Below, one piece after another: positions 29,416 through 48,395 of a stretch of 59,846 bases of DNA (the first letter of the stretch is position 1; each line of letters begins with the position of its first letter). Origin of the DNA: an uncultured Methylococcaceae bacterium (GTDB lineage Bacteria; Pseudomonadota; Gammaproteobacteria; Methylococcales; Methylomonadaceae). The translations under genes and the position numbers were made by a program. The notes under the pieces are model-generated. The model ran no database searches and was not told the DNA's origin. It worked only from the letters and a program-made list of their open reading frames with translations. The stretch lies in contig CAJADF010000132.1 in the NCBI GenBank assembly GCA_903938485.1, positions 1 to 59,846 of the forward strand, in the 5' to 3' direction.

Positions 29416-30102
29416 ATGCTCTCACCTGCCGATTTAGATACGCTCTGGCTCACCTTTAAAGTGGCGAGTCTTAGTACTTTTTTACTACTCTTAATCGGCA
29501 CCCCTATAGCCTGGTGGTTGGCGCGCACCCAATCACCCGCCAAAGGCTTTATCAATGCCTTGGTCTCATTACCCTTAGTTTTACCTCCTACAGTATTAGG
29601 TTTTTATTTGTTGATACTTATGGGGCCAAATGGCGCGCTCGGTAAATTAACCAACGCTTTAGACTTAGGTGCCTTATCCTTTACATTTACTGGCTTAGTC
29701 ATTGCGTCAGTGCTTTACTCTATACCCTTTGTGGTGCAACCTTTACAATCTGCTTTTAATAGCATTGCCCAGCAGACCTTAGAAGCCGCCGCTACTTTAC
29801 GCGCTAGCCCTTTAAACACTTTTTTAAGTGTCGTTTTACCACTCAGTAAATCTGGCTTTTTAACCGCAGGCATCTTAGGTTTTACTCACACGGTGGGCGA
29901 ATTTGGTGTGGTATTAATGATAGGCGGTAACATTCCTGATAAAACGCGCGTAGTTTCAGTACAAATTTATAATCATGTAGAAGCCTTGGAATATACCCAA
30001 GCGCATTGGTTAGCGGGTTGCTTACTCGCGTTCTCTTTTAGCGTTTTGCTGGTTTTATATACCGTGCTTAAAACACCGCCTCAAGTACAGCAACTCAAAT
30101 AA
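29416..30102 (+). CDS. modB: molybdate ABC transporter permease ModB
   Basis: Inner-membrane permease of 228 residues with about five to six hydrophobic segments. The start LSPADLDTLWLTFKVAS and the cytoplasmic EAA-type loop LEAAATLRASPLNTFLSVVLP, which docks to the ATPase, are characteristic, as is FGVVLMIGGNIPDKTRVVS. The stop codon overlaps the start of modC by one base (TAATG). Confidence 0.95.
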   Translation: MLSPADLDTLWLTFKVASLSTFLLLLIGTPIAWWLARTQSPAKGFINALVSLPLVLPPTVLGFYLLILMGPNGALGKLTNALDLGALSFTFTGLVIASVLYSIPFVVQPLQSAFNSIAQQTLEAAATLRASPLNTFLSVVLPLSKSGFLTAGILGFTHTVGEFGVVLMIGGNIPDKTRVVSVQIYNHVEALEYTQAHWLAGCLLAFSFSVLLVLYTVLKTPPQVQQLK

Positions 30103-31181
30103 TGCCTACCCTACCCGCTCGCTTTAAATTAGCTTATGAAAACTTTGCACTGGATGTTGATTTGCAATTACCCAGTACCGGCGTTACGGTATTATTTGGC
30201 CCTTCAGGTTCAGGTAAAACGACTTTATTACGCTGTATTGCCGGCTTAGAAAAAGCCCCTATAGGCTATTTTGAAATTAAGGGTCAATGCTGGCAAGACA
30301 GCACTAAAAAACACTTTATACCCACCTACCAAAGAAACTTAGGCTATGTGTTTCAGGAAGCCAATTTATTTCCGCACCTTAGTGTGATGGGGAATTTACA
30401 GTTTGGGGTAAAACGCCAAACGTGCTCAACAGTTAATTCCAGTAATTTTCAAGAAATTATCGATTTACTTGGCATAGAACATTTACTTAACCGCAAACCT
30501 GACCGCTTATCAGGCGGTGAAAAACAGCGTGTAGTGATAGCCCGCGCCTTATTACTTAAACCTGATTTACTCTTAATGGACGAGCCCTTAGCGGCCTTAG
30601 ACCAACAGCGTAAACAAGAAATACTGCCCTTTTTAATCCGCTTGCATCAACATCTATCTATACCCGTCATTTATGTCACACACTCTCAAGCAGAAGTAGC
30701 GCAACTTGCGGATACCTTAGTAGTAATGCAAGCTGGAAAAGTAGTAGCCCATGGTAATTTAACTGACACGTTTAATCGAATTGACTTACCTTTTGCGCAA
30801 GATAAAGGCGCAAGTAGCGTTTGGCAAGGCACCCTAAGCAGCCATGAAACCAATTATCATTTGAGTTGTGTGGCAATTAATGACAACACTCTTAGTTTAC
30901 CGCTGATAACAGCACCTATCGGCACAAAATTACGTATTCAAATATACGCCCGAGACGTGAGTATTACCCTATCAGCACCCACCGATACCAGTATTCTTAA
31001 TATACTACCAGCGGTCATTAAAGAAATTAAAGCCGATAACACAGGGCAATGCACTGTGCGCTTACAAGTTGACCATCAAAGTCTACTCGCACACATTACC
31101 CAAAAATCAGCTCATTTATTAAACTTAAAAGCTGAGCTAATGGTTTATGTGCAAATCAAGGGCACCTCTTTGTTAGGCTAA
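30102..31181 (+). CDS. modC: molybdate ABC transporter ATPase ModC
   Basis: ABC ATPase of 359 residues. Walker A is GPSGSGKTTLL (about 34-44), the signature is RLSGGEKQRVVIARAL, Walker B LLLMDEPLAALD, and the switch histidine lies in VIYVTHSQAE. The C-terminal 65 residues form a molybdate-binding TOBE domain (LPAVIKEIKADNTGQCTVRL). It completes the modABC operon. Confidence 0.95.
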   Translation: MPTLPARFKLAYENFALDVDLQLPSTGVTVLFGPSGSGKTTLLRCIAGLEKAPIGYFEIKGQCWQDSTKKHFIPTYQRNLGYVFQEANLFPHLSVMGNLQFGVKRQTCSTVNSSNFQEIIDLLGIEHLLNRKPDRLSGGEKQRVVIARALLLKPDLLLMDEPLAALDQQRKQEILPFLIRLHQHLSIPVIYVTHSQAEVAQLADTLVVMQAGKVVAHGNLTDTFNRIDLPFAQDKGASSVWQGTLSSHETNYHLSCVAINDNTLSLPLITAPIGTKLRIQIYARDVSITLSAPTDTSILNILPAVIKEIKADNTGQCTVRLQVDHQSLLAHITQKSAHLLNLKAELMVYVQIKGTSLLG

Positions 31182-31286: not shown

Positions 31287-32738
31287 ATGAAATCAATTTG
31301 GGAAAACTATAAAACTGACGTTGCTTACGATGAGTTGATGTATTCTGAGTATCAATCTCGTCCCGTGAGCCATCAATTATGTCGATATCTAGATTCTCTA
31401 AAAAAAGAAGATATCGATAAACGAAAGACCGCTGCTGAACTGGCCATAATGGAAATGGGCATCAGTTTTACAGTCTATAGTGACGAAGGAAACATAGACA
31501 GGGCGTGGCCTTTCGACATTATCCCAAGAATTATTGATGCTCGAGAATGGCGTATTATAGAAAAGGGTTTGAAGCAACGTTTAACCGCTTTAAACTGTTT
31601 TATCAGTGATGTTTATGGAGAACAGGCTTTTATAAAAGACGGTAAAATGCCCGGTGACATCGTGAACAGTTCTAAGAACTTTCGTAAAGAATGCATAGGT
31701 ATGAAACCTAAACACACTGTATGGGCTAACATCTGCGGCACCGATTTGGTGCGCGACAAAGATGGCATTATGTACGTGCTAGAGGACAATTTACGCGTAC
31801 CCTCTGGCGTATCTTATATGCTTGAAAACAGAGTGATTACTAAACGCGTTTTTCCTGAGTTATTTCAAGATATTGATATTCAACCTATTGACGACTATCC
31901 AACGCATTTACATGACATGCTCACCTCAATTGCCCCGCACCAAAATGGGCAAATTACTTGCGCTGTGCTCACACCTGGCATCTACAATTCCGCCTATTTT
32001 GAACATGCCTATTTAGCCCAACAAATGGGAGCACAATTAGTCGAAGGTAATGACCTAGTCGTTAAAGATGACGATTGTGTTTATATGAAAACGATTAGAG
32101 GTCTTGAAAAAGTAGATGTTATTTATCGTCGTATTGATGATGATTTTCTTGATCCTGAAGTATTCCGTAAAGACTCTACCTTGGGTGTGAAAGGCTTAAT
32201 GCGAGCATGGAAAGCAGGTAATGTTGCCTTGGCTAATGCACCGGGCGCGGGCGTTGCCGATGATAAAGTCGTTTATGCTTATGTACCGGAAATGATTCGT
32301 TATTTCTTAAATGAAGAACCTATATTACCCAACGTCCCCACTTATTTATGTAGCAATCCTGATCATCTGGAATATGTACTAGAGCACCTTGCAGAACTAG
32401 TGGTAAAACCAGCTAATGAATCAGGTGGTTACGGTATGTTAGTTGGACCACATGCAACAGCGAAAGAGGTAGAAAACTTTAGAGAAATAATCCAAAAAGA
32501 TCCTCGAAACTATATCGCTCAACCCACCTTATCAATATCTACCGCACCTACATTGTGCAAAGGTAAATTAGAACCGCGACATATCGATTTACGCCCCTTT
32601 ATTCTCCAAGGACAAGACACTTTTGTAACAGCCGGAGGTCTTACCCGGGTGGCCTTAAAGAAAGGTTCATTGGTGGTTAATTCTTCTCAAGGGGGTGGTA
32701 GTAAAGATACGTGGATTATTAACATGGAGGATAAATAA
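31287..32738 (+). CDS. circularly permuted ATP-grasp protein
   Basis: A 483-residue member of the circularly permuted ATP-grasp family (CP_ATPgrasp; DUF404/DUF407 type, COG2308). Active-site segments are VLEDNLRVPSG (164-174), LVVKPANESGGYGM (371-384) and the basic RHIDLRPFI (431-439). ATP-grasp enzymes ligate a carboxylate, via an acyl phosphate, to an amine; these members are predicted to be amide or peptide ligases but their substrate is unknown. The following alpha-E gene starts at the last base of this one, and that pair, together with transglutaminase-fold proteins and Anbu, is a recurrent neighbourhood. Confidence 0.85.
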   Translation: MKSIWENYKTDVAYDELMYSEYQSRPVSHQLCRYLDSLKKEDIDKRKTAAELAIMEMGISFTVYSDEGNIDRAWPFDIIPRIIDAREWRIIEKGLKQRLTALNCFISDVYGEQAFIKDGKMPGDIVNSSKNFRKECIGMKPKHTVWANICGTDLVRDKDGIMYVLEDNLRVPSGVSYMLENRVITKRVFPELFQDIDIQPIDDYPTHLHDMLTSIAPHQNGQITCAVLTPGIYNSAYFEHAYLAQQMGAQLVEGNDLVVKDDDCVYMKTIRGLEKVDVIYRRIDDDFLDPEVFRKDSTLGVKGLMRAWKAGNVALANAPGAGVADDKVVYAYVPEMIRYFLNEEPILPNVPTYLCSNPDHLEYVLEHLAELVVKPANESGGYGMLVGPHATAKEVENFREIIQKDPRNYIAQPTLSISTAPTLCKGKLEPRHIDLRPFILQGQDTFVTAGGLTRVALKKGSLVVNSSQGGGSKDTWIINMEDK

Positions 32739-33676
32739 TGTTATCACGCTCAGCTGAACGCATTTATTGGCTTGCCCGATATATTGAACGCACCGAGAAC
32801 ATTGCTAGACTAGTTAATGTTCACATGAACTTACTGATGGACTTACCTAAAGGCGTAGAAATGGGCTGGCGGCAGTTAATTTTAATTAATGCTTCAGAAC
32901 ACACCTTTTATGAAAAATATAATGTAGCCAACGAACGCAATATCACTCGATTTTTATTAGCTGATGATACATACCCTGGATCTCTTTTATCCTCATTAAC
33001 GGCCGCTAGGGAAAATATTCGTACTTCTCGAGACTTGTTACCTGATGAAGCCTGGGAGCAAGTGAATGAAATGCATTTATTTGCTAAAAAGAATCTAGAA
33101 ACCGTTGCCAATAGACGACATCGAGTTATATTTCTTAATGAAATATTAAAAGGCTGTCAACGCTTTACAGGCTTATTATCTGGCTACATGAGCCATAATG
33201 ATCCTTATGCTTTTATTCGCTTAGGCAGAAATGTTGAACGTGCCGATATGACGAGTCGAATATTAGATTTGGCATCTTTACTTCTATCCGAATCTCGAAG
33301 TGATGAAGTCCGACAATATGAAACTATTCTCTGGATGAATGTCTTAAAAGCTTTAAATGCTTTATTGATGTATCGTCAACAAAAGCATAGCAGAGTTAAT
33401 GGTGATGACGTACTTAACTTTTTATTACAAGATCAAAACCTACCCCGCTCTATCAGTTGTTGCCTGTCTGAAATCTCTGAATGCGTTATAAAACTTCCTA
33501 ACAATGGAGAGGTACCCAAAAAAGTTAGCGACCTGCAAGCTTACGTGCACGCTATAAATACTGAGGAAACAACCCAAGCTCAATTAAGAGGCATACTTGA
33601 TGACCTACAAAACAAACTGGGTGGACTACACAACGAAATCACTAACAAGTGGTTCCTGATTATAACAGAAGATTAA
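32738..33676 (+). CDS. alpha-E domain protein (DUF403)
   Basis: An all-helical protein of 312 residues; the family name refers to conserved glutamates in helices. The N-terminal pattern LSRSAERIYWLARYIERTEN and the later IRLGRNVERADMTSRILDL are diagnostic. The biochemical role is unknown; the domain nearly always travels with permuted ATP-grasp proteins. GGAGG of the upstream gene serves as its ribosome site, and the stop and start overlap (TAATG). Confidence 0.87.
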   Translation: MLSRSAERIYWLARYIERTENIARLVNVHMNLLMDLPKGVEMGWRQLILINASEHTFYEKYNVANERNITRFLLADDTYPGSLLSSLTAARENIRTSRDLLPDEAWEQVNEMHLFAKKNLETVANRRHRVIFLNEILKGCQRFTGLLSGYMSHNDPYAFIRLGRNVERADMTSRILDLASLLLSESRSDEVRQYETILWMNVLKALNALLMYRQQKHSRVNGDDVLNFLLQDQNLPRSISCCLSEISECVIKLPNNGEVPKKVSDLQAYVHAINTEETTQAQLRGILDDLQNKLGGLHNEITNKWFLIITED

Positions 33677-33687
33677 ATTACGACTCT

Positions 33688-33713
33688 GTGAGTGAAGCTA
33701 ACGCCTCACTCAC
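33688..33713. terminator. hairpin between convergent alpha-E and Anbu genes
   Basis: An 8-bp perfect stem (GTGAGTGA with TCACTCAC) with a 10-base loop in the 59-bp gap between two convergent genes. The T-tracts are poor on both sides, so it may be a weak bidirectional terminator. Confidence 0.5.
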
Positions 33714-33735
33714 TTAATAAATCCATGTAAATTAA

Positions 33736-34491
33736 TTATAAAACTCTACGCATTACCTTATGAGATGTTTTATCTATATTAGGTAACGCCGAGATTGCTT
33801 CTCGTAATTTAGTTTCCCAACTGCGTCTTAGTTGCAACATATAATCATCGTCATCATCAAAACAATAATACTCTTCAAAACTATAACTATCTTTACGATA
33901 AATTAGCATTTCAACTGGCGACCCTACACTCGCATTACTACGAATGGTTGAATCCATAGAGACTAAACAACAGCGAGCGGCTTCATCGATAGGGGTATTC
34001 AATTTTAGAAACCGATCCAAGATAGGTTTACCATACTTACTCTCACCGATTTGCAAAAAGGGTGTGTTTGCAGAAGTGGTAATGCTATTACCTTCCGCAT
34101 AAATCATATAGGCAGCGGGCGGTTGATCCCCAATTTGGCCGGCAAGAATAAAGCTAGCCGTTGGATTAAAAGCTGACTGCCCTTTATCTGTTTTATGCTG
34201 TTTTTGCTTTTCTACACTGACATGTCCCAAATAATCTGCTGCTTCAAATAAGCTTTCTACATTATTGAGATTTATTTCAGCTTCTTTAATTTTATCGCGA
34301 TGTAATTGCTCTAACACGGCTTGTGTTGTCGCAAGATTACCCGCACTCAACAATACAATATTACGATCACTTGAAGTATCAAAAGCGTGCATTTTGCCAT
34401 GAGTACTCACATTATCAATGCCAGCATTGGTTCTGGAATCAGAAACCAAAATTAACCCTTCGTCTATAGACGCTGCAATACAATAAGTCAT
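33736..34491 (-). CDS. Anbu-type proteasome-like peptidase
   Basis: A 251-residue Ntn-hydrolase of the bacterial Anbu (ancestral beta-subunit) family, related to proteasome beta subunits and HslV. The nucleophile is expected to be Thr2 after removal of Met1 (MTYCIAASIDEGL). The proteasome-like SDSRTN follows at 17-22 and Lys33 matches the catalytic lysine position. The C-terminus has the family-type aromatic/acidic segment YYCFDDDDDYMLQLRRSWE. Anbu genes are known to co-occur with ATP-grasp, alpha-E and transglutaminase genes, as here. It probably cuts a peptide made or tagged by its neighbours; that is inference. Confidence 0.88.
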   Translation of the reverse strand: MTYCIAASIDEGLILVSDSRTNAGIDNVSTHGKMHAFDTSSDRNIVLLSAGNLATTQAVLEQLHRDKIKEAEINLNNVESLFEAADYLGHVSVEKQKQHKTDKGQSAFNPTASFILAGQIGDQPPAAYMIYAEGNSITTSANTPFLQIGESKYGKPILDRFLKLNTPIDEAARCCLVSMDSTIRSNASVGSPVEMLIYRKDSYSFEEYYCFDDDDDYMLQLRRSWETKLREAISALPNIDKTSHKVMRRVL

Positions 34492-34523
34492 AATTATTTA
34501 AATGATGAAAATTTTTTAATACG

Positions 34524-35312
34524 CTAATTATCCAGTAAATCGACTCGAACGTCCATATCGTTTAGCAAACAACCGGAACCAAATTGATGAAAAATAGACA
34601 CATCTGCAGCATCTCGACCAAATGCCACAATAACCCGACCACCTAATAATACAGTCTGAGTTGGATCAAAGGTGTACCACCTTCCCCCTACATAAGCCTC
34701 AAACCAAGCATGTAAATCCATGGGGTGAAGATTATATAAATAGCCCACAACTAATCGTGTAGGAATACTAATACTGCGACACAACGCTATTGCAACTTGC
34801 GCTAAATCTCTGCACACACCCTGTCCACGCAGATGAACTTCTATCGCTGATAACGGATATTCGCTAGACCCAGGCACATATTCAATAAACTCTCGCACCC
34901 ATTCATTAATCTTACTCACCTGATCATACCCAGGCAAAGCACCTTGTGTAATATCTCTTGCCAAATCGCCAAAACGATCTGACTCACAATATCGACTGGG
35001 TAATAAAAAAGGCAACACATCATTTGGCAAATCTTGTATCTCAACAAAATGCGCACCTGGAACTACATTCACTTTATCTGCAACAATGACATCGGTTGAG
35101 GTATAAATTAAGAAATTACCCACGGGTGCCATTAAGCGCTGCACAGAATTACCAAAACTATCTGTACTTTCAAGCAGGGGTATTACCGGCCTAACCACAT
35201 AAACTTCTCGGTTAATCCACTGCTGTATGCCTCTATAAGGCCTAAGCATTAAAATTAACACACTGGCTTCAATCACTTGAAAACGAAGACTGCAACTGAC
35301 TCTTAATTTCAT
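34524..35312 (-). CDS. transglutaminase-like cysteine peptidase-fold protein
   Basis: A 262-residue transglutaminase-like protein. The triad is Cys167 (in GQGVCRDLAQVAIALCRS), His201 (in MDLHAWFEAYV) and Asp216 (in WYTFDPTQ). The N-terminal 110 residues form the beta-rich domain usual for bacterial members. Such proteins are mostly proteases or amidases rather than cross-linking enzymes. It lies 32 bases from the Anbu gene on the same strand. Confidence 0.87.
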   Translation of the reverse strand: MKLRVSCSLRFQVIEASVLILMLRPYRGIQQWINREVYVVRPVIPLLESTDSFGNSVQRLMAPVGNFLIYTSTDVIVADKVNVVPGAHFVEIQDLPNDVLPFLLPSRYCESDRFGDLARDITQGALPGYDQVSKINEWVREFIEYVPGSSEYPLSAIEVHLRGQGVCRDLAQVAIALCRSISIPTRLVVGYLYNLHPMDLHAWFEAYVGGRWYTFDPTQTVLLGGRVIVAFGRDAADVSIFHQFGSGCLLNDMDVRVDLLDN

Positions 35313-35361
35313 TTCAGTAAAATGGTTGCGAATAATTCTAAGATTAGCCTGAGGATACTGT

Positions 35362-36057
35362 TTAAATCCCTAGCGATTCAAGCTGTTTATAAGCATGATT
35401 TAACCAAATCTTAACGCGTTGCCTTTCTAATAAACCTAAAGCATCAAGACTTTGATCATCTTTATTTTTTGCCGCCCAAAAACTGTAACTATTACCATCT
35501 ATTTTAGTCATTACAGGTGCATGTAACCGTTTTAAAGTCATTACTTGTGCGTTAAAAGCCAAAGCCCTTTCTTTAACGCCAGAAAACTCTAATATATTAA
35601 AGTGTTCATCTCGCAATTGATTTTGAACCAACACATAATTAAATCGAGTACCGAACTGTGTTAATAATTTATTAAGTAGATCAACAGAATCTTTACCTGA
35701 ATCCATTACATTCCAGTAATAAATTTTGATATCTAATTCTTCTGCTAATTCCAAAACACCCGAGTCATCAATCCATTTTGCAAGTGATTGATGGGTTTGT
35801 GCGGCAAGATCAACTAAAACTCGATGATAAGGATTTTCAGCCGCCACCTCAATAATGGTATCTAAACTTTGATAACTATCTATGATGGTAGGCGACGCAT
35901 AATCTGCATAAAACCTCAGTAATGAGCCATGTGATTTATCAGTATCAAACCCTACAAAAGGTATTTCGTTATCTATCATGTATTGCGCCAATACGCGCGC
36001 CACTACTGATTTACCAACACCACCTTTTTCCCCACCTATTAAATGAATTGTAGCCAT
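35362..36057 (-). CDS. ParA/MinD-like P-loop NTPase
   Basis: A 231-residue SIMIBI-class NTPase with the deviant Walker A GEKGGVGKS at residues 9-17 following MATIHLIG, and a Walker B-like segment HRVLVDLAAQ. No DNA-binding region and no ParB partner are seen, and the middle is divergent from chromosome partition ParA; it resembles the small mobilization/nucleotide-binding proteins. It is embedded in the transglutaminase/Anbu cluster (42 bases from the next gene), which suggests a membrane- or complex-positioning role for that system, unproven. Confidence 0.75.
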   Translation of the reverse strand: MATIHLIGGEKGGVGKSVVARVLAQYMIDNEIPFVGFDTDKSHGSLLRFYADYASPTIIDSYQSLDTIIEVAAENPYHRVLVDLAAQTHQSLAKWIDDSGVLELAEELDIKIYYWNVMDSGKDSVDLLNKLLTQFGTRFNYVLVQNQLRDEHFNILEFSGVKERALAFNAQVMTLKRLHAPVMTKIDGNSYSFWAAKNKDDQSLDALGLLERQRVKIWLNHAYKQLESLGI

Positions 36058-36099
36058 CTCAGCTCCTCTAAACTAAAAACCTGTAAAAACCTTTTGAAC

Positions 36100-37104
36100 T
36101 TATGCCAACCTTAAAACGTCAACAGAAACTGATAAGGTGTGTTGTCCTCCTCCAAAAGCAATACCTTTTAGAGGGGTTACATCCGAAAAATCACGCCCCC
36201 ATGCCAACGTAATATGCTGATCATGAGGTACTTTATTATTCGTCGGATCAAAATCCATCCAGCCAATAGCCGGAATATAAACTGAAAACCAAGCGTGAGA
36301 AGCATCTGCCCCCACTAATCGAGATTTACCTGGCTCCGGCATCGTTTCGACATAACCGCTCACATATCTAGCCGCTATACCAAAAGAACGTAAACAACCT
36401 ATTGCTAAATGCGCAAAATCTTGACATACACCCCGTCTAAATCTTAGCACTTCAATTAATGGGGTTGCTATCGTTGTAAATGTCGGATCATAGGTAAAAT
36501 CTTTATATATACGTGCCATCAAATCATAGACCACATCGACCAACGCTCGATTAGGCTCAAAAGACAAACGCGCATATTCAGCCAACTCTGCACTGACAGA
36601 AACCATAGGAGAATCTAATACATATTGTCGAGCATCGAGTATCTCATAGGCATACTCTGTACTTTGACTTTGACTTTGACTTTGACTTTGACTTTGACTT
36701 TGACTTTGACTTTGACTTTGACTTTGACTTTGACTTTGACTTTGTTGCTCAGAAAACCCAGCCTGACTATTCAATGAAAAGTTTGTCTGTAAAATCTGTA
36801 CCACTTGCTCCCAAGTCATCGAATTGAATAAATCCAAACCATTTTGTTTTGGAAAAATAGTCACTTCACTAATGACAGTAACTAATAATTTGGTATGTGG
36901 TTTTTGCACGGCAAAGTAAGTGACCCGATTACCAAAAAAATCAGTTCTCTCATTAAAATCAGTAGGGCTTGGTGTTATCTCAAAATGACTGCTGTGCGCT
37001 TGCTGACGCCAGAAGTTTCGAGGTTGAAGCCGTGCTTCATTTTGACATAACCCCACCGATTGACTGTAATCATAAAGCGTACTGTGCGTAATACGATATT
37101 TCAA
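36100..37104 (-). CDS. transglutaminase-like protein with a (Gln-Ser)14 insert
   Basis: A 334-residue protein: N-terminal bacterial transglutaminase-associated domain (about 1-100, starting MKYRITHSTLYDYSQSV), a low-complexity linker, then the catalytic domain with Cys227 (RFRRGVCQDFAHLAIGC), His270 (ADASHAWFSVYIP) and Asp286 (WMDFDPTNN). Residues 121-148 are fourteen Gln-Ser pairs encoded by a hexanucleotide repeat, in the place where relatives have a short loop. The start is TTG and overlaps the stop of the upstream ATP-grasp fusion, so translation is coupled. Confidence 0.87.
   Translation of the reverse strand: MKYRITHSTLYDYSQSVGLCQNEARLQPRNFWRQQAHSSHFEITPSPTDFNERTDFFGNRVTYFAVQKPHTKLLVTVISEVTIFPKQNGLDLFNSMTWEQVVQILQTNFSLNSQAGFSEQQSQSQSQSQSQSQSQSQSQSQSQSQSQSTEYAYEILDARQYVLDSPMVSVSAELAEYARLSFEPNRALVDVVYDLMARIYKDFTYDPTFTTIATPLIEVLRFRRGVCQDFAHLAIGCLRSFGIAARYVSGYVETMPEPGKSRLVGADASHAWFSVYIPAIGWMDFDPTNNKVPHDQHITLAWGRDFSDVTPLKGIAFGGGQHTLSVSVDVLRLA
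36661..36744. repeat. hexanucleotide microsatellite (ACTTTG)14
   Basis: Fourteen perfect copies of ACTTTG (84 bp) on the plus strand, read on the minus strand as CAAAGT, coding Gln-Ser. Because the unit is six bases, slippage changes the number of dipeptides without breaking the frame. Confidence 0.97.
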
Positions 37105-39668
37105 AGCTCATCCTCGGCTGTATTAAGCACCATTAACTGAGAAGTTTGTGAATGGCTAAAATAAGCCTCTGCAATCAACTCTGAAGTCTGCCACAACAGG
37201 TCTGTTGTATTAGACATTAACTCTTCAAACTTCTGATAAACACCATCATCTTCATTAACTTGTGTTAACTCCTGTACATTACATAAGCGCAAATCTGTAC
37301 ACGCTTTTAAAATTAAACGCTCCTCTGCGCTTAACTGCCCCTTTCTTTTACTTCTTGGTAACGCGCCAATATGAATACATAATTGCTGCAACTGATAAGC
37401 AAGTGATCTTGGATGCGCATCATCTAATAAAAGCAACTCCAAGACTAAAGGTAATTGAATATAAGATCTATAGCGTCTCTGATAAATCGTTAAACTATCC
37501 GTTACAACTAAAACCGCCTCTAGAACTTGTGTTTGTAATACTTCTTCATGTCGCGAAGCTAAAGTGGAGCGTAATACCGATATTAATGCTAACGCACGCT
37601 CTATTCGACGACCGCTATCTAACATTAACCAGGACGCTTCTCGTGTCATACTTTCACTAGTCAATCCAGTAAAGGCTACGATACCCGTCATTAAGTCATC
37701 TAAATGGCTAGGCAATTGTTCTATAGTTAAATCAACATTACTTATTCTTTGCTGCCATCTACGCTGGATATTATCTACACTACGCCAAGTATCTTGTGAC
37801 CATAAATCTCGAATACTGAAAGCTGCTTGAAAAAAAGCCTGAACATTAGCCGTTAAAGTTCCCCTCCGAAAGACATCTTTAACTAAAGAAATTAACTCGG
37901 TATCGGGTACTTTTATAAACTGCTCATCACATTTTATAAATCCGGGATATGTTCCTGTGACTTGAGTCAGAGTTCTTAATAAAACGTGTAAACAAGCCTC
38001 ATCATGTTGATCCTTAAATTCAAATACTTCTCTATACTTAACTAAAATAACCCGCATTAAACGAGTCACAGCTTCTGTTCTTTCTAAATGCCGTCCCACC
38101 CAAAATAGGTTATCTGCTGCCCGACTGGTTAAAGCATCCGTTTCTGCATCTATTAACTGATTTCGTCTAGGCTGCGTCCACAAAGTAACGGGCTTATCCG
38201 GCTCTGAGGCTAACACCCAAGTATCTTTACTAATACCACCGGCTTGATTAGAAACTATAAAATTGTCTTTTTGCCGAGCGACTCGTGTTAACCCACCCGG
38301 CATTACTTCGTAGTCATGACCACTCGCTACCACGAAATTTCTTAAGACCGCATTTCGTGGCTCTATTTTGTTATCAATCAATGCAGGTAAGGTAGAGAAA
38401 CTCACTTGCTCTTGGCCTATAAATAAATGAGGCTTGGCAATGATTTGACTCCGTAATCTCTCTTTTTCTTTACTGCTTAAACTGCCGCCAAACACAGCAT
38501 GATTTCCATAGCCACGATTAATGGGTTTAACCACTAAACTATCCAGATGTTGCAACACAAAATCCCTTTCTCTGGACTGACCACACCACCAAGTTGCTAT
38601 AGACGGAAGCTTCAAGTCATCATTTAAAAAATATCTAGCTAACCTAGGTAAAAACGCCATAAGCGCTGGGTTTTCTAACACACTACTACCCAAGGGATTT
38701 GCTATCGCGACATTGCCTCTACGAACCGCCTCTAATAATCCTGCAATACCTAGCTTTGATTCGCTACGTAGTGCTAACGGATCACAAAAAGAGTCATCTA
38801 CACGTCGCAAAATAACATCAACAGCTTGCAATCCTGATAAGGATTTAAGCCAGACCTTGCCATCTCTGACCGTTAAATCTCCACCTTGAACTAAGGTGTA
38901 CCCTAAGTAGGCTGCTAAATAAGCGTGTTCAAAGTAGGTTTCATTAAGCGGTCCAGGCGTCAATATGACTATCCGTGGATCTTCTTTCTTATGTGGAGCA
39001 ATATCCACAAGACCTTTATGCAGAGATTTAAAAAATCCTGATAAGCGATGAACTTGAGTCTGCCTAAAAATGTCAGGCAAAACACGTGTCATTACTGTAC
39101 GATTTTCTAAAGCATAACCTGAACCTGAAGGCGCTTGAGCTCTATCATCCAGAACCCACATACGGCCACTAGGACCGCGAGCAAGGTTGGCAGAATAAAT
39201 TGTTAAATGACGTTTTTGCTTTTGTAAAGCGCCCAGGCAAGGATGTAAAAAGCCTTCATGGCTATACACTAACTCTGGAGGCAAGAGCCCTTTTTTTAAT
39301 AAAGTCTGTTTGCCATAAATATCTTTTAATATTAAATCGAGTAACTCAGCGCGCTGTTTAAGACCAGACTCAATAACGACCCATTCTTCACTACTAATTA
39401 ATAGAGGAACGGGATCAAGTCGCCATGGTCTAGTTAGATTTTGTGAATCGCCATAAACATTATAGGTAACCCCATTTTCACGCAATAGACGTTGAGCTTC
39501 TCTTCGGCGCAACTCCAAGTTTTCGGTACCCATACTATCCAATGCAGCCATAAAGCGTTCCCAATAAGGTAACACCTTAACTTTATTTGCATACATTTCA
39601 TCGTAAATACCTAGCTGCGTCGCATAATATTGCGTACCAATATCATTAGCTAAACTGTTATTGCGCAC
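37101..39668 (-). CDS. fusion of circularly permuted ATP-grasp and alpha-E domains
   Basis: An 855-residue two-domain protein. Residues about 1-490 are a permuted ATP-grasp domain like the separate gene 31287-32738; residues about 512-840 are an alpha-E domain starting LTSRAADNLFWVGRHLERTE. The two halves thus match a neighbouring gene pair fused into one chain. Its ATP-grasp motifs differ: VLDDRAQAPSG instead of VLEDNLRVPSG and VVKPINRGYGNH instead of VVKPANESGGYG, which I believe is usual for the fused subfamily. GTG was preferred over TTG because AAGGAA lies six bases upstream. Confidence 0.85.
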   Translation of the reverse strand: MRNNSLANDIGTQYYATQLGIYDEMYANKVKVLPYWERFMAALDSMGTENLELRRREAQRLLRENGVTYNVYGDSQNLTRPWRLDPVPLLISSEEWVVIESGLKQRAELLDLILKDIYGKQTLLKKGLLPPELVYSHEGFLHPCLGALQKQKRHLTIYSANLARGPSGRMWVLDDRAQAPSGSGYALENRTVMTRVLPDIFRQTQVHRLSGFFKSLHKGLVDIAPHKKEDPRIVILTPGPLNETYFEHAYLAAYLGYTLVQGGDLTVRDGKVWLKSLSGLQAVDVILRRVDDSFCDPLALRSESKLGIAGLLEAVRRGNVAIANPLGSSVLENPALMAFLPRLARYFLNDDLKLPSIATWWCGQSRERDFVLQHLDSLVVKPINRGYGNHAVFGGSLSSKEKERLRSQIIAKPHLFIGQEQVSFSTLPALIDNKIEPRNAVLRNFVVASGHDYEVMPGGLTRVARQKDNFIVSNQAGGISKDTWVLASEPDKPVTLWTQPRRNQLIDAETDALTSRAADNLFWVGRHLERTEAVTRLMRVILVKYREVFEFKDQHDEACLHVLLRTLTQVTGTYPGFIKCDEQFIKVPDTELISLVKDVFRRGTLTANVQAFFQAAFSIRDLWSQDTWRSVDNIQRRWQQRISNVDLTIEQLPSHLDDLMTGIVAFTGLTSESMTREASWLMLDSGRRIERALALISVLRSTLASRHEEVLQTQVLEAVLVVTDSLTIYQRRYRSYIQLPLVLELLLLDDAHPRSLAYQLQQLCIHIGALPRSKRKGQLSAEERLILKACTDLRLCNVQELTQVNEDDGVYQKFEELMSNTTDLLWQTSELIAEAYFSHSQTSQLMVLNTAEDEL

Positions 39669-39791
39669 CAATCATTCCTTATACAATTTCGTATCGGGTT
39701 ATTATCCTTTTACTCGAAATATCCTTAATTAGAACGAGACCAACGTCTTGAATGTAAGGTTAAAATAGAGTCTTATTTACATGAACTTCAA

Positions 39792-41099
39792 TTAATCCGT
39801 TCTTAAACTAATTTCCTCATAGTGGCGCATCTTTTCTCCCGTATATATTTGGCGAGGTCTATAGATTGTTACTTGCTCACCATGAATCATTTCGCGCCAA
39901 TGCGCTAACCAACCCGGCATACGCCCAATTGCAAATAAAACAGTAAACATGTTAGTTGGAATCCCTGCGGCGCGCAAAATCAAGCCCGAATAAAAGTCGA
40001 CATTGGGATATAACTTACGCGAGATAAAATATTCATCGTTTAATGCTATTTCTTCAATACGGCGTGCTATATCTAATAGCGGATCATTAATACCCGATTT
40101 ATTTAATAATTTATCGCAATGCTGTTTTAACACTTGCGCACGTGGATCAAAGTTTTTATAAACTCGATGCCCAAAGCCCATCAAACGCTTTCCTGACTTT
40201 TTATCTTTCGCCTGATTAATAAATTCAGTACCATCACCCCCTTCAGCATGAATTTGCTCTAACATCTTAATAACTTCTTGATTTGCACCGCCATGACGAG
40301 GCCCCCAAAGCGCCGCAATACCCGCAGTAATAACCGCATAAACATTTGCCATACTTGAACCTGCAGTTCTCACAGATGATGTACTACAATTTTGCTCATG
40401 ATCCGCATGCAGAATTAAGACCATATCAATGGCCCGAACGATATCCATATCTAATTGATAATCACGCACCGGTGATGAGAACATCATGTTCAGGAAGTTA
40501 CTGGTGTATTTGTATTTAATCGATGGATAGACTAAAGGCTCTCCAATAGATTTTTTATATGAGAAAGCTGCGATAGTGCGTACTTGAGAAACTAAATTAG
40601 CCACAATCTGAATTTCTGTCTGCTCATCTAAACGATCAGGCACAGGATAAAATGTAGATAACGAAGCGACCATTGTCGTTAAGATTCCCATGGGATGTGA
40701 ACCCCGTGGAAAACCATTAAAGAAATGGTGCATGTCTTCATGAATAATTGATGATTCATTAAGGCGTGTTGAAAACTGTAATAATTTATCAGCCGTTGGT
40801 AACTCACCGTACAATAGTAAATAAGAAACTTCAACAAATCGTGAATGAGCGGCTAGTTCTTCAATGGGATAACCACGGTAACGTAAAATTCCTTTTTCGC
40901 CATCTATATAAGTGATAGCACTTTCACAAGCACCTGTATTCCCATAACCATCATCTAAAGTAACGTAACCCGTTTGGCTTCGTAACTTTGTTATATCTAT
41001 GGCTTTTTCACCTTCAACCCCCATATAAGTGGGTAAGGAATAACTCTGATCATCCAAAGTTAATATAGCAGGATTCAACAATTTTAATTTACTACTCAT
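39792..41099 (-). CDS. gltA: citrate synthase GltA
   Basis: Type II hexameric-class citrate synthase of 435 residues, joining acetyl-CoA and oxaloacetate in the TCA cycle. Active-site segments are LILHADHEQNCSTSSVR, LWGPRHGGANQEVIKML and LMGFGHRVYKNFDPRA; the N-terminal beta-rich part (YSLPTYMGVEGEKAIDI) is that of the gram-negative NADH-regulated type. It has its own spacing of more than 90 bases on both sides and appears to be an independent gene inside the ATP-grasp/transglutaminase region. Confidence 0.97.
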   Translation of the reverse strand: MSSKLKLLNPAILTLDDQSYSLPTYMGVEGEKAIDITKLRSQTGYVTLDDGYGNTGACESAITYIDGEKGILRYRGYPIEELAAHSRFVEVSYLLLYGELPTADKLLQFSTRLNESSIIHEDMHHFFNGFPRGSHPMGILTTMVASLSTFYPVPDRLDEQTEIQIVANLVSQVRTIAAFSYKKSIGEPLVYPSIKYKYTSNFLNMMFSSPVRDYQLDMDIVRAIDMVLILHADHEQNCSTSSVRTAGSSMANVYAVITAGIAALWGPRHGGANQEVIKMLEQIHAEGGDGTEFINQAKDKKSGKRLMGFGHRVYKNFDPRAQVLKQHCDKLLNKSGINDPLLDIARRIEEIALNDEYFISRKLYPNVDFYSGLILRAAGIPTNMFTVLFAIGRMPGWLAHWREMIHGEQVTIYRPRQIYTGEKMRHYEEISLRTD

Positions 41100-41156
41100 T
41101 TAAATAAATCTCCTAGTAACGGGTATTACCACTATCGAATAGCTGATAGAGTCAAA

Positions 41157-41183
41157 GTTGGGTTAACACTAGTTTAACCCAAC
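41157..41183 (-). terminator. terminator downstream of the DUF2126 gene
   Basis: A perfect 10-bp stem (GTTGGGTTAA with TTAACCCAAC) and a short loop, 11 bases beyond the DUF2126 stop, followed on the minus strand by TTTGACTCT. It separates that gene from gltA, supporting independent transcription. Confidence 0.7.
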
Positions 41184-41193
41184 TCGCCAAAAT

Positions 41194-44100
41194 CTACCGA
41201 GTGCGATGACGTAAATCTAATGTAAAAGGATAGTCCACACTCAACTCTTCAACCGGTGGGGCCATAGCGCTAGGCGCTTTTTCACTCACTTTAAAGTTTT
41301 GTAAGAACGGTTCATCTGAGGCAACATCACGTGTCGTTGCTAAAGGTGGTCTGATGATAACACCTGGTGTGTGACCATAGTCCCAGAATCGTGTCATTCT
41401 GCGAGTTTCTGCCGCATAATCATTAACAGGGAAATCATCGTAACTTCGTCCGCCCGGATGGGCAACATAATAAGTACAACCACCCACAGATCGACCATTC
41501 CAAGTATCTATCACATCAAATACTAAAGGCGTATGTGGCGCAATAGTTGGATGTAATGCTGAAGGGGGTTGCCATGCACGATAACGTACACCGGCCACAT
41601 ATTCACCTTTACGGCCTGTATTACGCATAGGGACTCGACGCCCATTACATGCGATGACATAGCGACCCTCAGTAAAGCCAGTGACAGATATTTGAACCCG
41701 TTCCACGGATGAATCAACATATCGAGCAGTGCCAGAACTACTCATCTCTTCACCTAAAACATGCCAAGGCTCAATAGCAAACCTCAACTCCATGTCCATA
41801 CCATCAATGAGTGTATTACCGTAACGTGGAAATCTAAACTCAAAGAACGGCGCTAACCATTCAAGATCAAACGCAAAGCCTGCACGTTGTAAATCTTTAG
41901 TGACTTGACGCATGTCTTCATGCACATAATGTGGCAACATAAAACGATCATGTAACTCAGTACCCCAACGCACTAAATCGTGTTTATAAGGCTCTCGCCA
42001 AAACCATGCAATCAATGATCTTAAAAGTACAACTTGCACTAAAGACATTTGCGCATGTGGAGGCATTTCAAATGAACGTAACTCCAAAATACCCAATCGT
42101 CCTGTCGAACTATCTGGCGAATATAATTTATCTATACAGAACTCTGATCGGTGCGTATTACCCGTAATATCTGTCAATAAATGTCGTAATAGCCTATCAA
42201 CTAACCAAGGCGCGGGCACTTCGCCTTCTGGAATTTGTTGAAAGGCAATTTCTAACTCATATAACTTCTCATCGCGCCCTTCATCAACGCGTGGCGCCTG
42301 ACTCGTTGGACCAATAAACATCCCAGAGAATAAATAGGACAAGCCTGGATGATGCTGCCAATAAGTAATCAAACTACGTAATAAATCGGGACGTCGCAAC
42401 ATTGGGCTATCAGCAGGTATTTCCGCACCCATCGTGATATGGTTACCACCGCCGGTTCCGGTATGCCTTCCATCCTGCATAAATTTTTCAGTACCTAAAC
42501 GAGATAAATGTGCTTGCTCGTAAATAATATTGGTTTTTTCTACTAATTCATCCCATGATTTAGAGGGGTGAATATTTACTTCAATAACACCGGGATCTGG
42601 CGTAACCATGAGGCGTTCAATTCGATAATCTCTAGGTGGCTCATAACCTTCAAGTACTACGGGGATCGCCAGACTTTCTGCCGTTGATTCAATGGCTGCA
42701 ACCAACTCTAAATAATGTTCTAAGGTTGTTAATGGTGGCATAAAAATATGAATGCGACCATTTCTAGCCTCAACACATAAAGCGGTGTGAGGCACTTCTA
42801 CTTCTGCAAGACTATCACCGACTTCTTGTTCGATTATTTCTGGATGCTCATTAATTTTTGCCTCCATATGACTATATCGACGCGTGACCTCTCCATAATA
42901 ATCACCTAGCTCAGGTAAATCTTCAAATAAACTTTGCGGTTCTTGAGAATCACGTTTATCTGGTGCAATCCAAGGTAAACTCGCTAAGGGTAAGCGCATT
43001 CCCATTGGAGAATTACCCGGAATTAAAAACATAGCGCCTCGTCGAAAATCCCAAGGACCACTCTTCCAGGTTTGCTCATACCAGTTCCACTTGATGGGTA
43101 AGGTAAACCCTACTGGTTGGTCTAAGCCGACTTCCAACAATTTAGTTAGCGTTTTACGATCAATTGAGTCACTTAAATCAAACTTCAAAGAGTCTACATT
43201 GTCTGGCAACGTACCTTCTTGCCATAAATGGTAAAAACGATCTTCAAACCCTGTCACTACATATTTTGATTGCACCCCCAAACGCTGACATAGCTCAAAA
43301 ATAAACTTTTGAGCTTGTTTAACCGTGTGCCCATAATCTTTGTTGATGTCCGCTAATAACAAAGGATTACGCCAAACGGGTGCTTCATCTTTACGCCAAA
43401 AAATGCCATATTGCCAACGAGGTAAAGGCTCACCGGGGTACCATTTACCTTGACCATAATGGAGCATAGCGCCTTTAGCAAATACATCACGCAAGCGCAT
43501 GGTCAAATGTTGTGCGCGTTCACGCTTATTTGCACCATCTGCGTGCGTATTCCACTCATCACCCTCCATATCATCAACTGATACAAAAGTGGGCTCCCCA
43601 CCCATGGTCAAACGCACATCATCTTCAAGCAAGCGTTTATCAACCGTCTTACCTAAGGCATCAATGTGATACCACTGCTCATCTGTATAGGGTTTTGTAA
43701 CGCGAGGATCCTCGTGTAAGCGCTCAACCGTATTACTGAATTCAAATTCAACTTCACACTTATCTGTACCGCCAGAAACAGGCGCAGCACTTGCTGGATC
43801 AGGTGTACACGCTAAAGGAATATGTCCTTCACCCGCTAATAAACCTGAGGTTGGATCTAAACCAATCCAACCGGCACCAGGGATATACACTTCTGTCCAA
43901 GCATGCAAATCCGTAAAATCTTGCTCTGGTCCAGATGGACCATCTAAGGATTTAACATCCGACGTTAATTGCACTAAATAACCAGACACAAACCGAGCAG
44001 CTAAGCCCAAGTGTCTTAGGGCTTGCACTAGTAACCATGCGGAATCTCGACAAGAGCCACTACGTATTTTTAAAGTTTCTTCACTACTCTGAATACCCAC

Positions 44101-44589
44101 TTCCATACGAATGTTGTAACTAATCGCTTCAAATACTGTACGATTAAGCGCCACTAAGAAATCGTTGATATGCCGTTTAGTTTTATCGAATTGCTTAACC
44201 CACTCTATTAATAGAGGGCCATTCTCAGTAAGTTCTAGATAGGGCTTTAATTCTTTGAGTGTTTGCGCATCATAGTTAAATGGATAATTTTCAGCATAAT
44301 CCTCCACAAAAAAATCAAATGGGTTTATCACTGTCATATCAGCAATAACTTCAACCTCGACACTTAACTTTTGACATTTATCAGGAAATACCACTCGCCC
44401 CAAAATATTACCAAAAGGATCTTGTTGCCAATTAATAAAATGATTTTTCGGCTCTATACGCAAAGCATAAGCTTTAATAGGAGTTCTACAATGCACTGCA
44501 GGGCGTAAACGAAAAACATGGGGGGATAAGGATACAGGCCTATCAAAACTGTAGACTGTTTTGTGACGAATGGCGACGCGAATGGTCAT
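41194..44589 (-). CDS. transglutaminase-DUF2126 fusion protein
   Basis: A 1131-residue protein. Residues 1 to about 260 are a transglutaminase-like domain with Cys180 (IRSGSCRDSAWLL), His229 (FTDLHAWTEVYIP) and Asp245 (WIGLDPTSG). From about 325 the DUF2126 region starts with RLTMGGEPTFVSVDD and runs to the end; it includes TGTGGGNHITMGAE and a segment LGILELRSFEMPPHAQMSL, resembling the glutamine-synthetase/ATP-dependent carboxylate-amine ligase fold. Amide ligation and hydrolysis would then be combined in one chain. It belongs functionally with the ATP-grasp, alpha-E and Anbu genes, though gltA intervenes. Confidence 0.88.
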   Translation of the reverse strand: MTIRVAIRHKTVYSFDRPVSLSPHVFRLRPAVHCRTPIKAYALRIEPKNHFINWQQDPFGNILGRVVFPDKCQKLSVEVEVIADMTVINPFDFFVEDYAENYPFNYDAQTLKELKPYLELTENGPLLIEWVKQFDKTKRHINDFLVALNRTVFEAISYNIRMEVGIQSSEETLKIRSGSCRDSAWLLVQALRHLGLAARFVSGYLVQLTSDVKSLDGPSGPEQDFTDLHAWTEVYIPGAGWIGLDPTSGLLAGEGHIPLACTPDPASAAPVSGGTDKCEVEFEFSNTVERLHEDPRVTKPYTDEQWYHIDALGKTVDKRLLEDDVRLTMGGEPTFVSVDDMEGDEWNTHADGANKRERAQHLTMRLRDVFAKGAMLHYGQGKWYPGEPLPRWQYGIFWRKDEAPVWRNPLLLADINKDYGHTVKQAQKFIFELCQRLGVQSKYVVTGFEDRFYHLWQEGTLPDNVDSLKFDLSDSIDRKTLTKLLEVGLDQPVGFTLPIKWNWYEQTWKSGPWDFRRGAMFLIPGNSPMGMRLPLASLPWIAPDKRDSQEPQSLFEDLPELGDYYGEVTRRYSHMEAKINEHPEIIEQEVGDSLAEVEVPHTALCVEARNGRIHIFMPPLTTLEHYLELVAAIESTAESLAIPVVLEGYEPPRDYRIERLMVTPDPGVIEVNIHPSKSWDELVEKTNIIYEQAHLSRLGTEKFMQDGRHTGTGGGNHITMGAEIPADSPMLRRPDLLRSLITYWQHHPGLSYLFSGMFIGPTSQAPRVDEGRDEKLYELEIAFQQIPEGEVPAPWLVDRLLRHLLTDITGNTHRSEFCIDKLYSPDSSTGRLGILELRSFEMPPHAQMSLVQVVLLRSLIAWFWREPYKHDLVRWGTELHDRFMLPHYVHEDMRQVTKDLQRAGFAFDLEWLAPFFEFRFPRYGNTLIDGMDMELRFAIEPWHVLGEEMSSSGTARYVDSSVERVQISVTGFTEGRYVIACNGRRVPMRNTGRKGEYVAGVRYRAWQPPSALHPTIAPHTPLVFDVIDTWNGRSVGGCTYYVAHPGGRSYDDFPVNDYAAETRRMTRFWDYGHTPGVIIRPPLATTRDVASDEPFLQNFKVSEKAPSAMAPPVEELSVDYPFTLDLRHRTR

Positions 44590-45898: not shown

Positions 45899-46321
45899 AT
45901 GACAGCAACATTTCAGTTACACCCTCGATTAAAACAAGACTGCATAAGCTTAGGTCGTTTTGAGTTGTGCCAATTATTACTCATGAATGATAGTCAATAT
46001 CCTTGGTTTATTCTTGTTCCAGAGATTGCTGATATTAAAGAAATATATCAACTCAGCGAAATTAGTCGACAACTTCTGGCAAAAGAATCTAACTATTTAG
46101 CTGAAAAAATAGCTCAGTTTTATACAGCGGATAAATTAAATATTGCCGCAATAGGCAACCTCGTACCGCAACTTCATATTCACCATATTGTGCGTTATCA
46201 AACAGATATAGCTTGGCCAGCACCTGTATGGGGTAAATTCAACGCTGTGCCATATACCCAAACACAGCTAACCAATACCATAGCTGACATTAAACTCCAA
46301 CTTAACAATTTAATCCCTTAA
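45899..46321 (+). CDS. HIT family nucleotide hydrolase/transferase
   Basis: A 140-residue histidine-triad protein. The catalytic motif is QLHIHHIVRY with His93, His95 and His96, followed by QTDIAWPAPVWG, a pattern of the proteobacterial diadenosine-polyphosphate hydrolase-like branch. The N-terminal YPWFILVPEI is the usual strand. It lies four bases before cstA, so they form an operon, though no functional link is obvious. Confidence 0.85.
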   Translation: MTATFQLHPRLKQDCISLGRFELCQLLLMNDSQYPWFILVPEIADIKEIYQLSEISRQLLAKESNYLAEKIAQFYTADKLNIAAIGNLVPQLHIHHIVRYQTDIAWPAPVWGKFNAVPYTQTQLTNTIADIKLQLNNLIP

Positions 46322-46325
46322 AATT

Positions 46326-48395
46326 ATGAACAAGATTTTAAAATCTACGCTCTGGATACTCGTTGCCATCCTTGGAGCTTCTGCAGTTGGCTGTATTGCA
46401 GTTAATCGAGGTGAAAATATTAATGCACTCTGGTTTATAACGGCTGCCCTGTGTATTTATACTATCGCTTATCGTTTTTATGCCGCGTGGATTGCAGCCA
46501 CTGTCTTAGCAATTGACTCAACAAGAGCAACACCCGCAGAAAGACTCGAAAATGGACGAGATTTTGTACCCACTCATAAATGGATAGTATTTGGTCATCA
46601 TTTTGCAGCTATTGCCGGACCAGGTCCTTTAGTTGGGCCCACACTGGCCGCACAATTTGGTTATTTACCAGGTACCTTATGGATTTTATTTGGCGCTGTT
46701 TTAGGTGGTTGCGTTCAAGATATGGTGACATTGTTTTTATCTACGCGACGAGATGCAAAGAGCTTAGGCCAAATGGCCCGAGATGAATTAGGCGCAATCG
46801 GTGGGACAGCAGCATTAATTGCAACCTTTTCAATTATGATTATCTTAATCGCAGTTTTAGGCTTAGTCGTTGTTAACGCGATGAAACACAGCCCATGGGC
46901 AACATTTACAGTCTCTGCAACAATTCCTATTGCAATGCTGGTAGGGATTTATATGCGCTATTTACGACCAGGACAAGTTATCGAAGCTTCTGCTTTAGGC
47001 GTTATTTTATTATTAATCTCAGTAGTAGGAGGACGCTTTATTGACGAGCATAATACCTTACGTCTTTTATTTGATCACGAAGGTCTATCACTCGCGTGGT
47101 TTATCATGGCCTATGGTTTTGCTGCCGCAATCTTGCCCGTATGGCTATTACTTGCACCCCGTGACTACTTATCAACTTATATGAAGATAGGCACAATCAC
47201 ACTCTTAGCTGTCGCTATTATATTTTTACAACCCAACATAAAAATGCCAGCCATAACCCAATTTATTGATGGTTCTGGCCCTATTTTTGGTGGCAAGTTA
47301 TTTCCTTTTGTTTTTATTACTATTGCTTGCGGCGCTATTTCTGGCTTTCATTCACTTATCGCCTCTGGCACCACACCTAAATTACTCAGTAATGAACGTG
47401 ATATCTGTATGATCGGTTATGGCGGAATGCTACTAGAATCATTTGTCGCCATTATGGCTATGATAGCCGCTACCGTTTTGGAGCCCGGCGTTTTCTTTGC
47501 AATTAACAGTTCTGCGGGAGTTGTAGGTAGCAATGCTCTCGATGCCGTTAATAAAATAAGCGCTTGGGGTTATCCTGTTACTGTTGAACAAATGCAAATT
47601 TTAGCCCAGCAAATGGGTGAAAGGACCTTATTTGCTAGAACAGGAGGCGCACCATCTCTTGCGGTGGGAATGGCAAGTATATTTGGTAAAGCTTTTGGTG
47701 ACGGACTACTTGCAATCTGGTATCACTTTGCAATTATGTTTGAAGCTATTTTTATACTAACTACGCTAGATGCCGGCACTAGAGTTGGTCGGTTTATGCT
47801 TCAGGATATGTTGGGCAATATCTGGCCCAAAATGGGACAAACTTCTTGGCTTCCTTCTGTCATTTTAACAAGCGGTATTGTTGTAGGTGGATGGGGTTAT
47901 TTTTTATACATTGGCGTAATAGATCCTAATGGAGGTGTAAACATATTATGGCCATTATTCGGCATTGCCAATCAAATGTTAGCTGCGATAGCTTTATGTG
48001 TTGGAACTGGAATTTTGGTTAAATCAAACAAGTTAAAATACGCTGGCATTACTGCTGCACCTTTGGCCTGGCTAGTCATAATTACTTCTACAGCAGCTTG
48101 GCAAAAAATCACTAGCCCTGATTTACGCATTGGATTTTTCTCTGCAGCAAACGATTTAGCCGACAAACTTGCTTCAGGCGAGTTGCCTACTGAAAAAACT
48201 GCTATCGCCCCACAATTAATATTTAATCTACATCTAGACGCTTGGCTAACACTATTTTTTGTAAGCTTACTATGGTTAATTTTTATAGATATGTTACGCG
48301 TATGTTGGCGTTATATTTCAGGACGTTCTGTATTGCCTTTATCGGAATCACCTCATATCAATAGCTGTCTACTTGATGATTGGGTGAGAGATTAA
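46326..48395 (+). CDS. cstA: carbon starvation protein CstA (pyruvate/peptide transporter family)
   Basis: A 689-residue inner-membrane transporter of the CstA/BtsT family, used for pyruvate or peptide uptake. About sixteen to eighteen hydrophobic segments are seen. Family patterns are FGHHFAAIAGPGPLVGPTLA near residue 90, GCVQDMVTLFLSTRRDAKS near 135 and SGFHSLIASGTTPKLL in the middle. It shares its final base with the start of the ybdD-like gene. Confidence 0.95.
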   Translation: MNKILKSTLWILVAILGASAVGCIAVNRGENINALWFITAALCIYTIAYRFYAAWIAATVLAIDSTRATPAERLENGRDFVPTHKWIVFGHHFAAIAGPGPLVGPTLAAQFGYLPGTLWILFGAVLGGCVQDMVTLFLSTRRDAKSLGQMARDELGAIGGTAALIATFSIMIILIAVLGLVVVNAMKHSPWATFTVSATIPIAMLVGIYMRYLRPGQVIEASALGVILLLISVVGGRFIDEHNTLRLLFDHEGLSLAWFIMAYGFAAAILPVWLLLAPRDYLSTYMKIGTITLLAVAIIFLQPNIKMPAITQFIDGSGPIFGGKLFPFVFITIACGAISGFHSLIASGTTPKLLSNERDICMIGYGGMLLESFVAIMAMIAATVLEPGVFFAINSSAGVVGSNALDAVNKISAWGYPVTVEQMQILAQQMGERTLFARTGGAPSLAVGMASIFGKAFGDGLLAIWYHFAIMFEAIFILTTLDAGTRVGRFMLQDMLGNIWPKMGQTSWLPSVILTSGIVVGGWGYFLYIGVIDPNGGVNILWPLFGIANQMLAAIALCVGTGILVKSNKLKYAGITAAPLAWLVIITSTAAWQKITSPDLRIGFFSAANDLADKLASGELPTEKTAIAPQLIFNLHLDAWLTLFFVSLLWLIFIDMLRVCWRYISGRSVLPLSESPHINSCLLDDWVRD

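Follow-up and report, generated by a model that had tools for sequence, protein, structure and literature searches.

A methanotroph cluster of Anbu, ATP-grasp, alpha-E, transglutaminase-fold and DUF2126 genes with a degenerate fused ATP-grasp and a ParA-like ATPase

What might a bacterium do with two permuted ATP-grasp proteins, three transglutaminase-fold proteins and an Anbu peptidase homolog encoded side by side, and can each of these proteins act as the enzyme it resembles? The question is raised by nine genes at positions 31287-44589 (13,303 bases) of a stretch of 59,846 nucleotides, here called the window (contig C132, positions 1-59846), from an uncultured Methylococcaceae bacterium with an assembly of 2.51 Mb in 134 contigs. 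The cluster is the methanotroph version of a known system of Anbu, circularly permuted (CP) ATP-grasp, alpha-E, transglutaminase and DUF2126 proteins. This system is common, with alpha-E in 106, Anbu in 86 and DUF2126 in 65 of 369 genomes of the class; it also responds to nitrogen supply in Pseudomonas putida. Should only one of the two ATP-grasp copies be capable of ligation, assays can be aimed at that protein, with the other handled as its partner. The cluster also contains ParL, an ATPase gene that has not been counted in the system so far and that often travels with it.

Free-standing and fused ATP-grasp proteins

ATPg1, the free-standing CP ATP-grasp protein (31287-32738, plus strand; PF14403/PF04174, 560.7 bits to CP_ATPgrasp), shows the D, E-x-N, D-L-R and Lys/Gly-rich loop expected of an active ligase of this type, and has a relative of solved structure (3n6x, E 2.7e-157). 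Its catalytic-type residues are D153, E166, N168 and D434; the codons from D153 to N168 (31743-31790, plus strand) hold the metal-site-type motif DLVRDKDGIMYVLEDN. A set of 85 free-family sequences included 5 that were truncated, and all four residues were kept in each of the 80 that covered the four sites. The second copy is fused to an alpha-E domain (37101-39671, minus strand; PF14403, PF04174 and PF04168) and lacks the D, E-x-N, D-L-R pattern, having N162, D175, R177 and V442 at the corresponding positions. The first three of these fall within codons 162-191 (39099-39188, minus strand), together with a motif of the fused family's own, DRxQAPSGxGYALENR. Among 83 fused sequences, 77 of them complete, Glu at 166, Asn at 168 and Asp at 434 (positions as in ATPg1) were each found in none of the 77.

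The same division was seen after redundancy reduction, with both sets filtered by length and coverage: D/E/N/D was present in 47 of 47 free sequences, and E166, N168 and D434 in 0 of 57 fused ones. Arg replaced Asn at position 168 in 53 of the 57, and the first Asp, equivalent to D153, was retained in 24. These counts are of sequences rather than of independent events, and some of the sequences repeat the window. A phylum sample supplied another 29 fused proteins, of which 0 had E166, N168 or D434; these were the best-scoring proteins besides the window's own from 170 genomes (94 with matches) and are biased towards the degenerate query. A FastTree tree of 133 rows placed free and fused sequences in two cleanly separate groups (support 0.79). 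Fusion by itself is not the cause of the degeneracy, because one fused protein of free type (L165; 878 residues) still aligns with D/E/N/D. The same genome also encodes a degenerate fusion, next to this free-type ATP-grasp frame with its alpha-E motif (L165:9241-11877).

Judged by its residues, the fused ATP-grasp/alpha-E protein is a probable pseudoenzyme. A preliminary description of this locus had regarded both ATP-grasp proteins as ligases, a view that is unsupported because the fused copy has lost the catalytic-type residues. We take these residues to be catalytic from their presumed counterparts in GspS, D318, E330 and N332.

Composition and conservation of the cluster

ATPg1 is followed on the plus strand by the alpha-E gene (32738-33676), with which it shares one base. 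The all-helical alpha-E product scored 275.9 bits against PF04168, and the alpha-E part of the fusion 219.1 bits (cut-off 20.8); the AlphaFold model of the free protein had a mean pLDDT of 87.8 and a pTM of 0.88. The other seven genes are on the minus strand, in the transcription order TG-DUF2126 (41194-44589), gltA (39792-41099), fusion, TGb (36100-37104), ParL (35362-36057), TGa (34524-35312) and Anbu (33736-34491), with successive gaps of 94, 120, -4, 42, 49 and 32 bases. The two groups converge, with 59 bases between them, and since the ATP-grasp and alpha-E genes run against the other seven, the cluster is by its layout not one transcription unit. All the matches in this 2.5 Mb genome to PF14403 CP ATP-grasp (2), alpha-E (2), the transglutaminase core (3) and DUF2126 (1) lie inside the cluster, and their association is thus not due to chance.

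The Anbu protein is an Ntn-hydrolase homolog that scored under the Pfam Proteasome cut-off (20.5 and 22.4 bits, respectively) and matched five different solved sequences entered under the name of Anbu or its peptidase, with E values from 3.9e-68 to 4.6e-49. At least 97% of 49 aligned rows retain its T2, D18 and K33, and its six nearest matches, at 94-96% identity, are all in Methylococcaceae/Methylococcales genomes. A search that did not list Anbu itself found a proteasome-family gene above the Pfam cut-off on contig C133, presumably HslV.

In each of the three transglutaminase families, 97% or more of the redundancy-reduced rows (46, 72 and 53 rows) retain the Cys, His and Asp. In TGa (PF01841) these are Cys167, His201 and Asp216, and the exact motifs in unreduced rows were GVCRD in 66, HAW in 64 and DPT in 58 of 67. 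In TGb (PF08379 and PF01841) they are Cys227, His270 and Asp286, and all three exact motif strings were found in 84 of 84 rows. TGb also carries an insertion with a long in-frame SQ repeat (36661-36744), the length of which varies between relatives, since 10 of the 84 rows, three of them the window itself, have three or more SQ units. The transglutaminase domain of TG-DUF2126 (PF08379 and PF01841) belongs to a family with GSCRD in 76, HAW in 77 and DPT in 74 of 77 unreduced rows. The DUF2126 region of the same protein (PF09899, 1343.4 bits; cut-off 27) keeps E670-x-N672, along with many residues that are acidic, Arg or His, in 53 rows, and is a predicted amide ligase. Three tandem DUF2126-like frames of 709, 1118 and 1168 residues were seen in another genome (L196:360-9824).

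The preliminary description had placed two ATP-grasp, two alpha-E and three transglutaminase-fold modules with intact Cys-His-Asp, a DUF2126 region and an Anbu with Thr2 and Lys33 within 13.3 kb. Each of these was confirmed in its place, but the ParL ATPase and the citrate synthase of the same interval had been overlooked. The co-occurrence of these families across bacteria, also claimed there, was borne out in the class, where alpha-E was present in 81 of the 86 genomes with Anbu and in all 65 with DUF2126. As it had further reported, no substrate peptide gene is visible: no obvious candidate was found in the gaps of the cluster, the largest of which is 120 bases, and the longest frame lying mostly within a gap is 35 codons long and runs into the start of DUF2126 (short gap frames were listed and their conservation was not assessed). 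The substrate is therefore probably either a metabolite or the product of a gene outside the cluster.

Gene order was counted on the Anbu strand in 79 loci (L003-L081), all gathered by likeness to this Anbu. Among loci holding both members of a pair, TG-DUF2126 and gltA were adjacent in 25 of 25, gltA and fusion in 26 of 28, fusion and TGb in 46 of 48, TGb and ParL in 46 of 47, ParL and TGa in 53 of 54, and TGa and Anbu in 57 of 57. DUF2126 and fusion lay within 600 bases of each other, with no gltA between them, in 8 of 34 loci. At least 3.3 kb of sequence preceded Anbu in 64 loci (12 others were too short and 3 had no Anbu frame), and the series TGb-ParL-TGa was complete in 43 of these, reduced to one or two genes in 11 and missing from 10. 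Sixty-three loci had at least 2.6 kb after Anbu; 24 of them had the convergent alpha-E/ATPg1 pair and 36 had none of the query genes. The genes are tightly packed in the relatives, with a median gap of -4 bases between fusion and TGb and of 34 bases between TGa and Anbu. In two Methylotuvimicrobium loci (L073, L074) Anbu stands apart. A metagenome-assembled genome labelled Klebsiella pneumoniae (L077), a label that may be wrong, has an Anbu locus 52% identical to that of the methanotroph, with DUF2126 and ATP-grasp/alpha-E.

Upstream of ATPg1, by 105 bases and on the same strand, are the genes of a modABC molybdate transporter (28634-31181), preceded by that of an alginate-export-type protein (26917-28593). 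Of the 79 related loci, 3 (L004, L006, L007) had a ModC with an identity of at least 75%, several others being too short to show it. Past the far end of the cluster, the other strand carries genes for a HIT-domain protein and a CstA-like carbon-starvation transporter (45899-48395).

ParL and citrate synthase

ParL is a P-loop protein of 231 residues with a deviant Walker A motif, KGGVGKS, which fits the pattern KGGxGK[ST]; at least 97% of 49 rows keep its K11, G12, G13, G15, K16 and S17. We describe it as a ParA/TraL/MobD-like ATPase from matches below cut-off to Pfam CbiA (21 bits; cut-off 25.4) and to the TraL model PRK13886, considered below, and from its synteny and co-occurrence with the cluster. 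It is 31-34% identical to MobD-like plasmid proteins, mostly cyanobacterial (8 of 38 records compared).

A match to ParL was found in 14 of the 369 class genomes and was strong (E below 1e-45) in 11, from nine families; weak matches at 25-29% identity in three genomes (G116, G232, G330) and a second copy in G249 were excluded from the strong count. All 11 genomes with a strong match bear DUF2126, with a Fisher p of 2.4e-9, or of 0.006 within the alpha-E genomes, values that are uncorrected for relatedness and have no unrelated gene as a control. Among all 14, DUF2126 was present in 14, alpha-E in 14 and Anbu in 12. In the phylum sample strong matches were found in 2 of 170 genomes, one being the window's own, and both have DUF2126, which occurs in 55 of the 170; it was also present in 3 of 4 genomes with weak matches, the fourth (G456) being without it.

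ParL and gltA could nevertheless be passengers, conserved in the gene order of one clade without a functional link to the rest, and we give that explanation a probability not far below even. The local context of ParL speaks for it: of 15 regions around ParL matches outside the window, 10 held ParL alone (8 from strong and 2 from weak matches), 2 held other cluster genes, and the remaining 3, which came from weak matches only, yielded no blast match. Thus 3 of the 11 strong ParL genes, the window's included, were seen beside cluster genes; of the 8 strong regions with ParL alone, one reaches a contig end. The relatives of ParL in plasmid mobilisation fit the same explanation. So does the nature of gltA, a housekeeping enzyme (TIGR01798, above cut-off) that is the single citrate synthase match in the genome and is missing between DUF2126 and fusion in the Methylovulum loci. 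However, the presence of DUF2126 in every strong-ParL genome extends over nine families, albeit with relatedness uncorrected, and in an unrelated family (L107) ParL adjoins Anbu, together with ATPg1 and alpha-E; in L102 it is also found with cluster genes. ParL and the cluster share a contig in G184, about 31 kb apart, and in G249, with a contig equal in length to that of L073, ParL stays with the DUF2126 module.

Proposed function and comparison with known systems

As an explanation of the whole we favour, with modest confidence, an amide ligase/hydrolase system for nitrogen stress, in which one ATP-grasp is active and the fused one is a non-catalytic partner. The free ATP-grasp, with alpha-E as its substrate-binding partner, and DUF2126 would form an amide-linked product, probably when the cell is under nitrogen stress, and the fusion would serve as a scaffold or as a substrate- or acceptor-binding partner. 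The transglutaminase-fold proteins and Anbu may then hydrolyse or trim amide bonds, returning the nitrogen. ParL could have an accessory role as an ATPase, organising or switching the complex, and gltA may link expression to the carbon/nitrogen status of the cell or may be a passenger whose synteny is clade-specific. Only tentatively do we go further and propose that the fusion is an ancient obligate pseudoenzyme subunit, a scaffold or substrate carrier working with the single active ATP-grasp and DUF2126, and that ParL is a domesticated chromosomal MobD/TraL-type ATPase, a true component, not recognised until now, that positions or switches the complex.

The nitrogen response comes from published work. 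In P. putida, PP_2688 (ATP-grasp) and PP_2685 (Anbu) were raised on nitrate relative to ammonium, by log2 values of 3.99 and 4.44 (PMC8050072). Under nitrogen limitation PP_2686, PP_2687 and PP_2688 rose 12.6-, 11.0- and 14.7-fold in the wild type, and 14.2-, 16.0- and 19.6-fold in an rpoN mutant (PMC7801951). PP2685-2687 were also raised in a further data set (11.1, 6.6 and 7.1 in its first column; PMC3325844), and in marine metagenomes the domains of the system are associated with those of urea metabolism (PMC3597751). Release of phosphate from ATP is reported for the Yersinia ATP-grasp (PMC6376114). Further literature on the system includes PMC12316311 and PMC8407117.

Several points weigh against the nitrogen-stress ligase/hydrolase explanation. 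The nitrogen evidence is from P. putida and not from a methanotroph, PP_2685 stood at 1.12-fold in one wild-type set (PMC7801951), and its promoter is described as nitrogen-independent (PMC8050072). No sigma-54-type site was found in the gap upstream of either gene group here, which says little because PP_2686-2688 are induced in the rpoN mutant too. Anbu of Yersinia (YbAnbu) is reported to have neither peptidase activity nor specific interaction with its operon partners (PMC6376114); co-expression of the operon proteins is reported to yield no different form of Anbu, and the same paper cites unchanged expression across conditions and an operon dispensable in non-stress growth (PMC5666114). 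The genes here form two convergent groups rather than one. According to PMC6376114, from 2017, none of the hypotheses on the role of the system had been confirmed, and among the papers searched we found none naming its product. Lastly, the role given to the lost ATP-grasp residues is taken from GspS residues and motif likeness, and a profile comparison with E. coli Gss detected no similarity.

The fused ATP-grasp could instead be active as a ligase, with changed metal ligands and a different chemistry. Its own motif is almost invariant (Q179 in 56, and P181, G183, N190 and R191 each in 57 of 57 rows), and fused rows keep many free-family residues, with the equivalents of R281 in 56, R282 in 54, N317 in 57, K473 in 55, D474 in 57 and W476 in 57 of 57. 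However, the loss of E, N and D at three positions in every full row, the broken-up glycine-rich loop GGYG, and a Lys at the equivalent of Lys374 in just 6 of the 29 phylum-sample rows, as against 45 of 57 in the class, make such an activity improbable.

Protein tagging, with ligases attaching a peptide or amino acid, Anbu degrading or untagging, and transglutaminase-fold proteins removing the tag, has been put forward in hypotheses summarised in PMC6376114 and PMC5666114 and fits the proteasome-type residues of Anbu, but it is unlikely here, with neither a tag gene nor an AAA+ unfoldase among the nine genes, an Anbu described as an open ring (PMC5666114) and reported to lack peptidase activity, and DUF2126 present without detected Anbu in 14 of 65 genomes.

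Four known systems may be compared with the cluster. The Anbu operon, as set out in PMC6376114 and PMC5666114, has four genes of the families ATP-grasp, alpha-E, transglutaminase and Anbu, and all four families are present here. However, in the window ATP-grasp and alpha-E converge on TGa-Anbu, in place of the conserved order of a single operon, and Anbu is the last of seven genes in a group, after DUF2126, gltA, fusion, TGb, ParL and TGa. A trio of DUF2126, ATP-grasp/alpha-E fusion and transglutaminase is found together in many of 40 fetched regions of other genomes, as it is here, but in this cluster gltA lies between DUF2126 and fusion, and ParL follows TGb. E. coli Gss/GspS resembles the free ATP-grasp in its D318...E330-x-N332, which parallels D153...E166-x-N168; it differs in that profile similarity is undetectable and that the fused copy is without these residues. 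The TraL/MobD ParA-type ATPases share with ParL the deviant Walker A motif, a near full-length match to the TraL model and the identity to MobD-like proteins noted above. ParL is, however, chromosomal, has no mobilisation gene among the cluster genes, and at 46.7 bits falls far under the TraL cut-off of 360, which places it outside TraL proper.

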